Assembly (NCBI RefSeq): GCF_014196345.1
Contig: NZ_JACIDN010000007.1
Location: forward strand, 248,001-312,000
Direction of reading: 5' to 3'
Source of the DNA: Methylobacterium brachythecii
GTDB lineage: Bacteria > Pseudomonadota > Alphaproteobacteria > Rhizobiales > Beijerinckiaceae
DNA: 64,000 nucleotides
In this document: positions 25,906-34,778 of the stretch, piece by piece
Layout of the letters: each line of letters begins with the position of its first letter
Numbering within the stretch: the stretch's first letter is position 1
Position numbers and translations under genes: made by a program
The notes under the pieces: model-generated
The model's database searches: none
What the model saw: only the letters and a program-made list of their open reading frames with translations
Told to the model about the DNA's origin: nothing

Positions 25906-26466
25906 ATGACCGGGGCCTCCGACGAGGCGCTGGTGACGCGGATCGCGGGCGGCGACGCGCTCGCGATGCAGAGCCTCTACGCGCGGCATTCCACACGCGT
26001 GTACCGGTTCCTCGTGCGCCTCGTCCGGGATGCCACGCAGGCAGAGGACCTGATGAGCGACGTATTCTTCGATGTCTGGCAGCAGGCCGCCCGGTTCGAG
26101 GGCCGCTCCAGCGTGACGACCTGGATGCTGGGCATCGCCCGCTTCAAGGCGCTGTCTTACCTGCGCAAGCGCCCGCACGAGGCGCTCGAGCCAGAGATTG
26201 TCGAGGCGATCGAGGACGAGGCCGACACACCCGAGATCCTGCTGCAAAAGGTCGGCAAGGCTGAGGTAATCCGTCGCTGCCTCGCCGTGCTCTCCCTGGA
26301 GCATCGCGAGGTGATCGACCTCGTCTATTACCACGAGCGCAGCGTCGAGGAGGTCGCCGAAATCACCGGCGTTCCTGCGGGAACGGTGAAGACGCGGCTC
26401 TTCCACGCCCGGAAGCGGCTCTCGGAACAGCTCAACGCCATGGGTATCGATCGGGGCTGGCCATGA
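25906..26466 (+). CDS. ECF-type RNA polymerase sigma factor
   Basis: Sigma-70 family factor of 186 residues. Region 2 spans about residues 22-90 (DLMSDVFFDVWQQAARFEGRS, TWMLGIARFKAL) and region 4 about 125-178 (LSLEHREVIDLVYYHERS, AEITGVPAGTVKTRLFHARKRL). It should direct transcription of an envelope-related regulon. Its stop overlaps the anti-sigma start (ATGA at 26463-26466), the usual translational coupling of such pairs. It lies 76 bases after the S8 protease gene on the same strand. Confidence 0.95.
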   Translation: MTGASDEALVTRIAGGDALAMQSLYARHSTRVYRFLVRLVRDATQAEDLMSDVFFDVWQQAARFEGRSSVTTWMLGIARFKALSYLRKRPHEALEPEIVEAIEDEADTPEILLQKVGKAEVIRRCLAVLSLEHREVIDLVYYHERSVEEVAEITGVPAGTVKTRLFHARKRLSEQLNAMGIDRGWP

Positions 26467-27137
26467 CCGCGCGCGAGCCAGGCGAGGACCAGACACCCGA
26501 CGAGGTCGACCTGCTGCTGCCCTGGCATGCAGTAGAGCGGCTCTCGCACGAAGAGGCCGAACAAGTCGAGGCGGCCCTGCGCGCCGACCCCGAACGCGCC
26601 CGCCATCTCGAGATCGCCCGGGAGGAGCGCGCCGAGACCGTGGCGCTGAACCAAGGGCTTGGTACGCCCTCGCGGGCAGCGCGCGACGCGCTCTTCGCGC
26701 GGATCGCAGCAGAGGGCCGAGCACCCGCCAAGGGTTTTTCGGGTCGCTGGGGCGACTGGCTGGCGAGCCTGTCGCCGCACTCGCTCGCCTGGTCCGGCGC
26801 GGCCGCAGCCCTGGTGATCGCCGTGCAGGCCGGTCTGCTGACGAAGGCCTATCTCGGCACCGCGCCGGGTGCCTACGAGACGGCATCGGCACCCTCCCCG
26901 GCATCCCAACAGGGTGTCTTCGTGCTGATCGCTTTTGCGCCGGCAGCGCCCGCTGAGCGGATCGAGGCACTTCTGCGCGAGGCCCATGCCGTCATCGTCG
27001 ACGGTCCGCTGCCCGGCGGAGTGTATCGCTTGCGGATCGGGGAGCGTGGCGAGACGGCCACCAAGACGATCGAGCGGCTGCGCTCCGAAACCACGCTCGT
27101 GCGCCTCGTCGCGCCCGTGTCGCCAGCCGTCCGCTGA
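26463..27137 (+). CDS. Membrane anti-sigma factor
   Basis: 224 residues. The N-terminal part (about 15-60, VDLLLPWHAVERLSHEEAEQV) is an anti-sigma domain without the zinc-binding HxxxCxxC motif. A single membrane segment lies at about 107-125 (WSGAAAALVIAVQAGLL). The periplasmic C-terminal domain (about 150-220) has a beta-alpha-beta-beta-alpha-beta pattern (FVLIAF, RIEALLREA, HAVIVDG, GVYRLRI, TKTIERLRS, TLVRLVAP). The ATG overlaps the sigma factor stop. It should hold the sigma factor at the membrane until a periplasmic signal, possibly the neighbouring protease, acts on the C-terminal domain. Confidence 0.88.
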   Translation: MTAREPGEDQTPDEVDLLLPWHAVERLSHEEAEQVEAALRADPERARHLEIAREERAETVALNQGLGTPSRAARDALFARIAAEGRAPAKGFSGRWGDWLASLSPHSLAWSGAAAALVIAVQAGLLTKAYLGTAPGAYETASAPSPASQQGVFVLIAFAPAAPAERIEALLREAHAVIVDGPLPGGVYRLRIGERGETATKTIERLRSETTLVRLVAPVSPAVR

Positions 27138-30139: not shown

Positions 30140-31066
30140 TCAACCTTTGCTGGAGAGGGTGTCTGGAACCTGGGAGAAAGCGCCGGGCGGCGCCGGGGTC
30201 ACCACGAAGTCGACAGCTCGCCGCTGCTCGTCGAGCGCACGCAAGAAGGCTTCACCGGCGACGACGTCGCGGAATTTCCAGAGCTTGTTCCGAGCGCCTT
30301 CGAAGATCAGCGAGTAGACGGCGAGTTGCACGCCCTCACGCACGGCGAGTGTCGTCGGTGAGTTCTTGGTGAAGCCAGCCTCGGCCTGCAGCAACTGGTC
30401 GACCGCCGCGAATTTGAACGCAGTTCCGTTGACCAGGATCGAGTAGATCGTCTTGGTGGTCGTCACCGAAGCGAGGACACGTCCGGTCTGGACGCTGACC
30501 GCGCGAAGGGCGACGGTGACGATGTCCTGGCGATACTGGGTATTGCCGCCGATGCCGAGATAGTTGGCGCCGATCCCGCCCGTGGTCTCGTTGGAATCGT
30601 AACCGATGATGCCGCCCTGCAGGGCGATGCCCGCGAAGCGCAGCGGCGGCAGGCCGGCGGCTTTCTCGCCCTGGACGGCCGTTCGGGTGTTCTGGATGAT
30701 CTGCCGCTCCTGCAGGAGCGAGGCGAGTTCGTTGCGCTCGACGACGTTGAACCAGCGGCCTGCGCCGGCCTTGACCAGCACGTCCGTCAGGATCGCCGCG
30801 CCGCCCTGGGTGGTGGCACGCGAGAACTCCGCGAAATTGTCGTTCGGCTTGTTCTGCCCGGTCAGGTCCGGAAAGCTGTAGACGGCGACGTCGAGAGCTT
30901 GAACGGGCGGCGGAAGCTTGTCGAGGATGACGCCCGACTTGGTTTCGGGCACGAGCGTCGCAGGCTGCGTTGCGGGGTCCAGGACCGTCCCCGTCGCGGC
31001 GATGCACCCACTCAGGGCAAAGCAGAAGATTGCTGCCACGGCAGCGCGTGCCATCACCGTCATCAT
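30140..31066 (-). CDS. csgG: Curli secretion channel lipoprotein
   Basis: CsgG forms the nonameric outer-membrane pore that exports curli subunits. The protein has 308 residues; the lipobox LSGC is at residues 18-21 after a short signal peptide. The CsgG-family core follows: LDVAVYSFPDLTGQ, AGRWFNVVERNELASLLQERQII, LRFAGIALQGGIIGYDSNET and YRQDIVTVALRAVSVQTGRVL. The start is the first of two tandem ATG codons near 31066, after a G-run; a TTG at 31168 would add an unrelated leader overlapping csgF. It is the last gene of the curli operon here, 49 bases after csgF. Confidence 0.95.
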   Translation of the reverse strand: MMTVMARAAVAAIFCFALSGCIAATGTVLDPATQPATLVPETKSGVILDKLPPPVQALDVAVYSFPDLTGQNKPNDNFAEFSRATTQGGAAILTDVLVKAGAGRWFNVVERNELASLLQERQIIQNTRTAVQGEKAAGLPPLRFAGIALQGGIIGYDSNETTGGIGANYLGIGGNTQYRQDIVTVALRAVSVQTGRVLASVTTTKTIYSILVNGTAFKFAAVDQLLQAEAGFTKNSPTTLAVREGVQLAVYSLIFEGARNKLWKFRDVVAGEAFLRALDEQRRAVDFVVTPAPPGAFSQVPDTLSSKG

Positions 31067-31115
31067 GTCGAGCCCCCCTGAAACCTTCTTGTCTTCTTGA
31101 CCGAGCGGCGTTGGC

Positions 31116-31400
31116 TCAGGGATTGGTCGGGATGGTCGTTCCGTTGATGATGATCGTAGGCGTCGCAACGCTCGTGGAGTCGCCGAGCTTGCTCAGGGCC
31201 GCGTTGAGGCCGGACAGGTCGGGGGAGTTCTGCCCCGATTTGGCGCCGTACCCTTGAGCCTGCGCTGTCGAGAGGAGGAAGGTGCCATTCAGCGCGTTGC
31301 CGCCGAAGGTCGGGCTGACCGGCCGGTAGACCTGCTCGGTGGCCGAAGCGGGGATGACGCCTCCGAGGAGGCCGGCGAGAGCTAATGCCGAAAGTTTCAT
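31116..31400 (-). CDS. csgF: Curli assembly protein CsgF
   Basis: CsgF sits on the outer face of the CsgG pore and passes fibre subunits to the nucleator. The protein has 94 residues, against about 138 in E. coli, so it is short. After the signal peptide (LALAGLLGGVIPASA) comes the diagnostic N-terminal segment YRPVSPTFGGNALNGTFLLS followed by TAQAQ, which in E. coli inserts into the CsgG channel. AGGAG lies about 8 bases before the ATG. It sits between the CsgB-like gene (44 bases) and csgG (49 bases). Confidence 0.93.
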   Translation of the reverse strand: MKLSALALAGLLGGVIPASATEQVYRPVSPTFGGNALNGTFLLSTAQAQGYGAKSGQNSPDLSGLNAALSKLGDSTSVATPTIIINGTTIPTNP

Positions 31401-31444: not shown

Positions 31445-31960
31445 TTAACGCTTGATCAATAGGCCTCCATTCGGAAGGCGTGCGATCAACATATTAATCG
31501 GAGCAGAACCCTGAGGCTGGATTACACCGACATTTAAGCCTTGGGTTCCCAGTAGCACGACGTTCGAGCGAAGATTGTCACCAGCTTGCAACACGCCGGC
31601 TCGATTGCGGCTTCCGATCATTCCGACCGTAGATTCATTGTTGAAACCTGCCTGCACGTGCAGAGCTTGATTGTTGATCCCGACCTGCAACGTCTGCGCG
31701 AGGTTGTGCCCGGACCCGCGCATGGCGGCCATTTCGGGCGTCTGTGGAGGGGTATAGGCCGTCGGCGTGCGCGAGACGGCCGGCGCCGGCGGGGCGTTCA
31801 GCAGCGTCGCGGCGGCTTGAAGCGGCACCGCGGTCCCGCTCGCCATCTGTGGAATATACGCCGACTCGGCGCGCGCGATGGACGGTGACAGCGCGACCAG
31901 GGCGGCCAGCGCGAATGAGGCCCGGAGGGCCTTGGCACGTGAAGTCACGGAGATTGGCAT
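31445..31960 (-). CDS. Short curlin-repeat protein, CsgB-like
   Basis: 171 residues with a signal peptide (about 9-32, ending ARA), a Pro/Ala-rich spacer and a C-terminal half with four to five degenerate curlin repeats: TLQVGINNQALHVQ, STVGMIGSRNRAGVLQ and SNVVLLGTQGLNVGVIQPQ. The small number and poor regularity of repeats fit a nucleator (CsgB) rather than the main fibre subunit, but that is inferred. The start at 31960 has AAGGAAG upstream and lies inside the end of csgH (16-base overlap), so the two are translationally linked. Confidence 0.85.
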   Translation of the reverse strand: MPISVTSRAKALRASFALAALVALSPSIARAESAYIPQMASGTAVPLQAAATLLNAPPAPAVSRTPTAYTPPQTPEMAAMRGSGHNLAQTLQVGINNQALHVQAGFNNESTVGMIGSRNRAGVLQAGDNLRSNVVLLGTQGLNVGVIQPQGSAPINMLIARLPNGGLLIKR

Positions 31961-32331
31961 GACGTGCTTCCTTGATCCCATTCCAGAATCAGCTTGGCTT
32001 CGTAGTGACCGCGCGCAGAGCCATCCAAGGCTAGGCTCGAGAGGGTCGTCTCGGTGCCGGAGGTCAGCGAGAAGTCACCGCTCTGGACGTTCTGGCTGGT
32101 TCCGGTCTCACTTCGTTTGAGGACGAAGAGCCGGTACCGGCCTTGGAGATCCGCATCGGATCGGGCGACGGCCTGGAGGCGAAGGAGGCCTGCGGCCGAG
32201 TCGGAGCGGATCTGACACGACACGCCCATGACTGGATCCTTCGGAGGGGCAGCGGGCGTCAGGGCCGCGGCGGTCCCCAGGCTGCCGGCGAAACCGGCGA
32301 GGGCCACGATCGACGAGAGAGAGCGGCGCAT
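31945..32331 (-). CDS. csgH: Curli amyloid inhibitor chaperone CsgH
   Basis: 128 residues: a signal peptide (about 1-23) and a single immunoglobulin-like domain with VSCQIRSDSAAGLLRLQAVARS, GRYRLFVLKRSE, NVQSGDFSLTSG and a C-terminal Cys. This is the alphaproteobacterial counterpart of CsgC, a periplasmic chaperone that stops curlin from forming amyloid before export. Its location between the large curlin and the CsgB-like gene, overlapping the latter by 16 bases, supports the call. The two Cys residues could form a disulfide. Confidence 0.88.
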   Translation of the reverse strand: MRRSLSSIVALAGFAGSLGTAAALTPAAPPKDPVMGVSCQIRSDSAAGLLRLQAVARSDADLQGRYRLFVLKRSETGTSQNVQSGDFSLTSGTETTLSSLALDGSARGHYEAKLILEWDQGSTSCQSP

Positions 32332-32402: not shown

Positions 32403-34778
32403 TTAGCGCTGCACCGTGATGGCCGCGTTGCGGTAGCCGAACTGCGCGGTGACCGAGCTGTTGGTCACGTTGCCGCCGGTCGACTGCGACGTCAGGGCGT
32501 AGTTGTTCGCACCGACCTGCACGGTGGCCTGCGTGTTGGCGCCGATCATAGCCTGCGGGCCGGTCTGCTGGAACGCGTTGGCCGTGTTGTTGTAGCCGAC
32601 CTGCGTGATCAGCGAGCCGTTGGCACCGATGGCGCCGAGCGGGTTGGCGACCGTGCCGGCGAGGCTGGTCCGCTGGACCGTCAGCGCCGTGTTCTTGACG
32701 CCGAGCTGGGCCGTCACCGAGCCGTTGAGGTTGGCCGAGAGCTGGCCGTTGGTCTGGCTGGTGATGGCCGTGTTCCGCGCACCGATCTGCAGGGTGCCCT
32801 GCAGGTTCGAGCCGTTCTCCTGACCGACGACCGCGTTGTTCCTCGAGCCGATCTGAGCGACGGTCGAGTTGTTGGAGGTCGGAAGGATGCTGGAGCCCTT
32901 TTGCGAGGTCAGGGCGACGTTTTTGCTGCCGATCTGGACCACGGAAGAGTTGTTGTCGACGCCGTTGAGCGGAACAAAGTCCGGAGTAACAACGGTCGTT
33001 GTTGCCGTCTGTTGCGCGACGCCGGACCCGAACGATGGGCCATTATAGGCAACGAAGACTGGGAACTTGCTGCCAAGAATTGGCGTCTTGATGGACGGTA
33101 GCGTGACTGAGCTGCCGCCAACACGCGTGCCGACGGAGCTCTGGCTCGTCAACGCCGAGTTGCCGTTACCGATCTGCAAGGTGGAAGCCGAGTTGATGCC
33201 ACCGCTGTAGGCCGGAAGCGTTACTGGTAAACTGGACGTAGAAGTTTGGTCGATTGCAGCGTGAGTTTTCCAGGTGTCAGGCCCAAACAACACAAACTTC
33301 AGGCCCTCCCACGTGGAGTAAGAGTTGGATGTTGTATGGGTGGTCGCCGTGATGGAGCCGGTCTGGCGCGGCGCTCCCGACGACACCTGAGCGGTCACGG
33401 CGCTATTCCCGCGACCGATCTGCACGGTCGACGCGTCGTTGGTGAGCCCTTGCAGATTGCTCGCCTGGTCGGTCGCCGAGAAGTTGCGAGCGCCGATCTG
33501 CAGCGTGCCCTGGCCGTTGTTGCCGCCGTCCTGTGCGACGAGAGACACGTTGCCGACACCGAACTGGGCGGTGGTCGAGTCGTTCGTGCGGTTGCCGGAG
33601 GCGCCCTTCTGAGCCGTGACGGCGAAGTTGCCAGCGCCGACCTGCAGGGTGTCCTGAGTGTTGTTGCCGCCCGTCTGGCCGACCAGCGCGAAGTTCTTCA
33701 CGCCGAACTGCGCGACGTTCGAGTCGTTGTGCCCAGCCGTCGCCTTGTCCTGCGCGGTCACGGCGACATTGCCGGCACCGACCTGAAGCGTGCGCTGGTT
33801 GTTGTTGCCGCCGTCCTGGCCGACGAGGGAGCTGTTCCCGACGCCGAATTGGGCGGTGGTCGAGTCGTTCTTGCCATTGGAGCCGCCGGCCTGAGCGGTG
33901 ACCGCACCGTTCTTCGCGCCGACCTGCAGGGTGTCCTGGGTGTTGGCGCCGCCCTTCTGGCCGACCAGCGCGAAGTTCTTCACGCCGAACTGAGCGATGT
34001 TCGAGTCGTTCGACCCGTGCGTTGCCTTATCCTGCGCGGTCACAGCGATGTTGCCGGCACCGACCTGCAGCGTGCGTTGGTCGTTGTTGCCGCCGTCCTG
34101 GCCGACGAGGGAGCTGTTCGCGATGCCGAACTGAGCGGTGGTCGAGTCGTTGGGGCCGTGCGAGCCGCCGGACTGACCCGTGACGGCCTGGTTCTTCACG
34201 CCAACCTGAAGCGTGCGCTGATCGTTCTCGCCGCCCGTCTGGCCGACCAGCGCGCCGTTCTTGACGCCGAACTGGCTGGTGGTCGAGCTGTTGCTGCCGA
34301 GGGCCGCATCCTTCTGGCCGGTCAAGGCGAAGTTGCCGGCGCCGACCTGGAGGGTGCGCTGGCCGTTGCCGCCGCCGTCCTGGCCGACGAGGGAGACGTT
34401 GGCGACACCAAACTGCGCGGTGGTCGACTCGTTCGTGCCGCGCGTTCCACCGGTCTGGCCGGTGACGGCGAGGTTCTTCGCGCCGACCTGGAGCGTGGTC
34501 TGATTGTTGCCGCCGACGCTCTGGCCGACGACGGCGCTGTTCCTCGCGCCGAGCTGGACGGTGCCCGAATTGTTCTTCTTGGTGCCCGAGGTCTTCTGGG
34601 TGGTGAGCGCCTGATTGCGCGCGCCCGCCTGGAACGTGGTCTGCTTGTTGTTGCCGCCGGTCTGATCGGCGACAGCACCGTTGAAAGCGCCAATCTGCGC
34701 AATGAACGACTCGTTTTCGGCAGCAGAAAGCGCCGTGGTGCTCGCGAGAACGAGCGCCAGTGCTACTGACGTCTTCAT
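32403..34778 (-). CDS. csgA: Very long curlin (CsgA-like) amyloid subunit with 27 repeats
   Basis: 791 residues, about five times E. coli CsgA. A signal peptide (MKTSVALALVLASTTALSA) is followed by 27 units that I can count of the form xQxGxxNxAxxxQ, for example TLQVGAGNFALTGQ alternating with TAQFGVGNSSLVGQ. Linkers between units are rich in Gly, Asn, Asp and Ser. Two non-repeat inserts interrupt the array, after units 19 and 20 (the first contains WEGLKFVLFGPDTW, the second FPVFVAYNGPSFG). Each unit should form one strand-turn-strand rung of a beta-solenoid amyloid. It is the first gene of the curli operon; a CtrA-type box lies 85 bases upstream and a strong hairpin just downstream. Confidence 0.93.
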   Translation of the reverse strand: MKTSVALALVLASTTALSAAENESFIAQIGAFNGAVADQTGGNNKQTTFQAGARNQALTTQKTSGTKKNNSGTVQLGARNSAVVGQSVGGNNQTTLQVGAKNLAVTGQTGGTRGTNESTTAQFGVANVSLVGQDGGGNGQRTLQVGAGNFALTGQKDAALGSNSSTTSQFGVKNGALVGQTGGENDQRTLQVGVKNQAVTGQSGGSHGPNDSTTAQFGIANSSLVGQDGGNNDQRTLQVGAGNIAVTAQDKATHGSNDSNIAQFGVKNFALVGQKGGANTQDTLQVGAKNGAVTAQAGGSNGKNDSTTAQFGVGNSSLVGQDGGNNNQRTLQVGAGNVAVTAQDKATAGHNDSNVAQFGVKNFALVGQTGGNNTQDTLQVGAGNFAVTAQKGASGNRTNDSTTAQFGVGNVSLVAQDGGNNGQGTLQIGARNFSATDQASNLQGLTNDASTVQIGRGNSAVTAQVSSGAPRQTGSITATTHTTSNSYSTWEGLKFVLFGPDTWKTHAAIDQTSTSSLPVTLPAYSGGINSASTLQIGNGNSALTSQSSVGTRVGGSSVTLPSIKTPILGSKFPVFVAYNGPSFGSGVAQQTATTTVVTPDFVPLNGVDNNSSVVQIGSKNVALTSQKGSSILPTSNNSTVAQIGSRNNAVVGQENGSNLQGTLQIGARNTAITSQTNGQLSANLNGSVTAQLGVKNTALTVQRTSLAGTVANPLGAIGANGSLITQVGYNNTANAFQQTGPQAMIGANTQATVQVGANNYALTSQSTGGNVTNSSVTAQFGYRNAAITVQR

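Follow-up and report, generated by a model that had tools for sequence, protein, structure and literature searches.

A long curlin in the csgH-type operon of Methylobacterium brachythecii with two predicted lateral loops, probably an exchanged hypervariable cassette

The window analysed, 64,000 bp of Methylobacterium brachythecii (contig NZ_JACIDN010000007.1, positions 248,001 to 312,000), carries a curli operon on the minus strand in the order csgA-csgH-csgB-csgF-csgG, with csgA as first gene and the products all above the Pfam cut-offs. The csgA-like gene for the major curlin occupied exactly the open reading frame of the original prediction (32403-34778, minus strand, 791 aa), and its product was assigned to CsgA by the Curlin_rpt model (PF07012) with 42.3 bits against a cut-off of 20.7. 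Downstream on the same strand follow genes for CsgH, a CsgC-like amyloid inhibitor (31945-32331; PF21112, 50.6 bits), a short curlin that is likely CsgB with a presumed nucleator role (31445-31981; PF07012, 23.6 bits versus 20.7), a CsgF of 94 aa covering only positions 2-49 of the 132 positions of PF10614 (31116-31400), and the secretion channel CsgG (30140-31168; PF03783, 170.7 bits), whose frame is listed from a TTG and probably starts further in. csgA is thus encoded together with csgG and a second curlin gene. A csgE product had no match anywhere in the genome, while the E. coli control was positive; with csgH beside csgA and csgB and csgE absent, the operon fits the alphaproteobacterial csgH type as far as it is laid out by Dueholm et al. 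(PMC3521004). Large Shewanella adhesins contain curlin-like repeats as well (PMC3521004), such repeats are also described from outside csg operons (PMC10192328), and the protein might accordingly be a solenoid adhesin or another surface protein instead of a curli subunit; with csgH, csgB, csgF and csgG directly downstream on the same strand, and CsgH, CsgF and CsgG also present in two relatives (loci L028 and L027; CsgB by Pfam in L028 only), this is highly improbable. The short CsgF is much alike in L028 and L027. Its C-terminal part seems to be absent, thus the anchoring of the nucleator may differ. A second short curlin of 122-123 aa is located near csgA in G011 and G110 (L027:10400-10768 and L006:1627-1998, both plus strand; G110 and L006 are the same entry); a role as second nucleator in M. 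brachythecii was rejected, there being no clear copy in this genome.

Two further gene groups in the window were recorded. Upstream of csgA lies an open frame of 8,918 codons (37215-63971, minus strand; start codon uncertain), whose C-terminal 2,918 residues scored 498 bits for RTX calcium-binding repeats; by its sequence it looks like a giant adhesin. A gene for an ECF-type sigma factor is followed by an overlapping gene without a Pfam match, possibly encoding its anti-sigma factor (25906-27137, plus strand). A plasmid origin was discarded: matches occurred in 7 of 72,556 plasmid records, all below 60 % identity and none named Methylobacterium.

A parse with the rung motif N-x5-Q-x-G-x2-N-x5-Q reproduced the predicted 27 curlin repeats and the non-repeat inserts after repeats 19 and 20. 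The N-terminal 20 residues resemble a signal peptide as judged by eye (34719-34778). Rung 1 (NESFI) begins at residue 22, almost directly after this leader, without an N22-like segment; N22 is termed an outlier (PMC10192328) and so does not serve to define CsgA in general. In the N-terminal array of rungs 1-19 (33387-34715), residue spacings of 22 and 25 alternate, precisely 22 with 25-26 up to rung 18. Rung-to-rung identity was higher at even lags (0.61 at lag 2 and 0.63 at lag 4) than at odd lags (0.46 at lag 1 and 0.47 at lag 3), thus the repeat unit is a pair of rungs and the array grows pairwise. An even number of rungs (18, 20, 14 and 14) precedes the first loop-bearing rung in the four orthologues of the genus. 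Rungs 9-12 (33870-34151) and rungs 13-16 (33585-33869) look like a recent four-rung tandem duplication (33585-34151), with core nucleotide identities of 0.93, 0.89, 0.96 and 0.81. Such a close duplication, in a draft of 28 contigs and in tandem repeats that are prone to misassembly, could also reflect repeats collapsed or expanded during assembly; yet the reading frame is uninterrupted, the phase of two rungs is intact, and independent genomes have 23-30 rungs with the same inserts, so that an artefact is very unlikely. The array continues with the core of rung 20 (33141-33194), the sole rung separating the two inserts, and with the C-terminal rungs 21-27 (32406-32954), in which the ANPLG and MIGA arcs are kept in position.

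Both inserts are located in the second arc of their rung, downstream of motif b: insert 1 with 64 aa in rung 19 (33195-33386) and insert 2 with 62 aa in rung 20 (32955-33140), extending the spacings at these rungs to 82 and 80 residues. They are rich in aromatic residues (8.7 % versus 3.2 % in the rungs) and proline (7.9 % versus 0.6 %). Tryptophan, phenylalanine and proline had been ascribed to both; insert 1 contains both tryptophans of the protein, whereas insert 2 has phenylalanine, tyrosine and proline, but no tryptophan. Known domains were dismissed for the inserts, as a search of the two peptides against Pfam (E up to 1) gave a single match, to NPCBM_assoc (E 0.071), which was below threshold with 13.7 versus 24.4 bits. 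Insertions in arc 2 of a curlin-rung solenoid are also a feature of the D-class curlins, which are degenerate or insert-bearing (Sleutel et al. 2023, PMC10192328). The inserts of the window differ from these in their size of about 60 aa, in their confinement to two neighbouring rungs of a regular array and in their hypervariability between sister species, while insert variability is not treated in the available part of that study.

Structure prediction of the full protein had been proposed as a check, and AlphaFold2 returned stacked strands throughout, a predicted solenoid of about 27 rungs of the strand-arc-strand type (mean pLDDT 80.5 and pTM 0.70 for the mature chain with 11 sequences; 84.4 and 0.78 for the C-terminal 441 residues with 9 sequences). 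In a VIA-align comparison the best match was CsgA R15.5 of Pontibacter korlensis (8c50) with Z 37.8 and an rmsd of 1.3 Å over 292 aligned residues spanning construct residues 1-441, followed by a row with Z 17.8; E. coli CsgA (8enq) aligned over all 111 residues with Z 11.4 and an rmsd of 1.4. Foldseek also ranked an 8c50 chain first (E 2.2e-8), but with low TM values (0.27/0.32), and the whole protein had no match among the PDB sequences at 0.01. Since the alignment to 8c50 spans construct residues 1-441, the predicted solenoid runs through the inserts. The inserts had been thought to break the array; in the model the solenoid is continuous through both, and the alternative suggestion that they form a loop agrees with the prediction, in which each insert is a side loop in the second turn of its rung, the two rungs being neighbours. 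The bases of the loops are predicted strands (construct residues 122-134, 159-171, 201-209 and 239-256), the tips are of low confidence with a pLDDT below 50 (construct residues 143-148 and 219-235).

The original prediction had regarded the number of repeats as exceptional. In the account of Sleutel et al. (PMC10192328) the repeat number of CsgA homologues ranges from 4 to 62, and its distribution has secondary maxima near 15 and 22; a review of 2025 gives a range of 3-52 (PMC12822426), and the orthologues compared here have 14-30, thus 27 is within the known range. The other genus orthologues have 30 rungs in Methylobacterium sp. C25 (G110), 23 in G011 and 23 in G070. The number falls to 15-20 in more distant members of the family and to 14 in Rhizobium; for the family member G326 the motif parse gives 19, one rung too few (by eye, the missed rung has a Q to S change). 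The gene is patchy: the long csgA ortholog was present in 4 of 111 genus genomes, CsgH in 24 of 111. At a threshold of 1e-20 and with its own genome counted, csgA had matches in 8 of 298 genomes of the family sample and in 2 of 397 of the order sample. The ortholog counts omit G023 (E 5.1e-5), a fifth hit in the genus, and G041 (E 8.7e-6), both weak matches to short, different curlins; Rhizobium G760 and locus L009 are one entry and were counted once. The 20 other CsgH loci of the genus (L053-L072) carry quite different curlins, whose rungs are separated by irregular and often long gaps; they were parsed by the motif only, which undercounts their rungs.

The position of the loops is conserved. 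Counted from the C-terminal end, the loop site is at eight rungs in the genus orthologues and at nine in G110, which has one extra C-terminal rung (4 of 4), and the insert lengths are similar with 64/62, 72/62, 66/57 and 60/58 residues. The closing motifs are kept as well, GG ahead of rung 20 and LNGVD ahead of rung 21. In all of five other family genomes the corresponding turns, at the same C-terminal register, have 38/34, 23/18, 17/12, 16/12 and 16/11 residues, the genomes G142, G182 and G205 providing weak support as their loops are no longer than 11-17 residues and an arc of 14 occurs in another rung too; the motif parse errs at rung 1 of G142, which leaves the positions counted from the C-terminal end unaffected. 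In Rhizobium these turns have 7 and 4 residues (4 of 4), i.e., the loops are absent. The smaller loops at the same site outside the genus indicate that the site predates the genus and that the loops are largest within it.

In sequence the loops diverge strongly. Between the sister species G011 and G070 the amino acid identity was 92 % in the rungs just before the inserts and 97 % in the four rungs after them, but 36 % and 39 % in the inserts. The silent sites followed this pattern: pS in windows of 30 codons was 0.42-0.88 inside the cassette of both loops and the rung between them, and 0.00-0.25 outside, with the values in the inserts inflated and soft because of poor alignment. As background, pS was 0.14 for alaS, 0.19 for rpoB and 0.05-0.28 for the other csg genes. 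The synonymous differences were clustered, with 54.75 in the densest 100 codons compared with at most 32.7 in 2,000 shuffles. Where both genomes encode an identical amino acid, the codons differed at 42 of 500 positions outside the cassette, but at 25 of 43 in the inserts (Fisher p 2.7e-14) and at 6 of 14 in the middle rung (p 8e-4), where the alignment is cleaner but usable codons are limited to these 14. The comparison of the window csgA with G110 gave inserts of 52-55 % identity next to 100 % in the last three rungs; same-amino-acid codons differed in 38 of 65 cases in the inserts, 5 of 10 in the middle rung (again all its usable codons) and 108 of 516 in the rest (p 1e-9 and 0.04). For this pair the background pS was 0.35 for alaS and 0.22 for rpoB, while the ends of csgA were below it with 0.00-0.05 (N end) and 0.04-0.14 (C end), a hint of flanks homogenised around old blocks. 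Part of the contrast between the window and G110 may therefore come from homogenised flanks and not from imported loops. Overall, the divergence at silent sites exceeds what faster amino acid change alone would give and points to the exchange of a divergent block, or to flanks homogenised around old blocks. These comparisons cover four cassette alleles from one genome per species. Positive selection on the loops is not proposed, since pN/pS was below 1 and pS near saturation.

Alternatively, the inserts may be linkers under no constraint, former rungs that have degenerated or decayed and now drift without exchange and without function. Several observations would agree with such a drift: the low pLDDT of the insert tips, a GC3 of 0.67-0.68 in the window inserts versus 0.90-0.95 in the arrays, an insert pN/pS of 0.42-0.87, above most flanks, and the long inter-rung spacings that are common where other CsgAs of the genus are linked to CsgH. 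Drift of loop residues, however, would not raise the divergence at silent sites of the middle rung, which aligns well, between G011 and G070, nor would it be expected to keep the loop site, similar lengths and the closing motifs in all four orthologues, with bases predicted as strands. We consider free drift unlikely. The probable reading is a secreted major CsgA of 27 stacked rungs with a conserved amyloid core and a hypervariable two-loop cassette that is exchanged between divergent alleles and has a role in contact.

By analogy to known curli systems, CsgH, which resembles CsgC and inhibits the nucleation of curli (PMC4838910), would keep CsgA unfolded in the periplasm, CsgG with the short CsgF would export it, and the CsgB-like protein would nucleate its polymerisation into a beta-solenoid fibre. 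The two loops of about 60 residues, each in the second turn of one of two adjacent rungs, would stand next to each other and share one edge. With head-to-tail stacking of the subunits, the fibre would carry a lateral knob at intervals of about 13 nm (27 rungs x 4.8 Å). Loop pair and middle rung would be traded as one cassette among divergent alleles, with the amyloid core remaining conserved. Exposed at the fibre face, the loops would likely serve lineage-specific contacts with surfaces, partners or enemies, and their conserved position together with a hypervariable sequence makes them a possible recognition site. The best structural match, P. korlensis CsgA, has the same regular stacked rungs, but 15.5 of them, and large lateral inserts are not mentioned in the accessible sections of its description (PMC10192328), compared with 27 rungs and two inserts here. 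E. coli CsgA shares the fold and a csg operon; it has 5 rungs and the N22 targeting segment, whereas the CsgA of the window is without N22 and its operon has CsgH and no detected CsgE. In flagellin the polymerising core is conserved and the exposed central domain is hypervariable. The combination of conserved core and variable exposed middle is common to both proteins, yet fold and system are unrelated and the likeness is an analogy only.

On sequence grounds, the protein is a long curlin with a repeat number in the known range; new is the evolution of its loops, an unusual hypervariable cassette predicted to be lateral. If the proposed reading is true, this would be a functional amyloid with an antigen-like variable region, for which no report was found in the open-licence literature (most subscription journals are outside of it). 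Curli fibres are described as having no low-resolution features for alignment, added fiducials were of no help, and an ambiguity of handedness and head-to-head stacking have been discussed (PMC10192328); a lateral knob every 13 nm or so, about 11 nm in the 23-rung orthologues, would reveal the polarity of the fibre and the register of its subunits. In Methylobacterium, csgG has been put forward as a candidate gene for plant colonisation (PMC5017803). For this Methylobacterium clade we tentatively propose, as a possibility on the doubtful side, a modular amyloid with an invariant core and a recombining two-loop cassette displayed periodically along the fibre, which may serve the binding to host surfaces or the evasion of phages or grazers.
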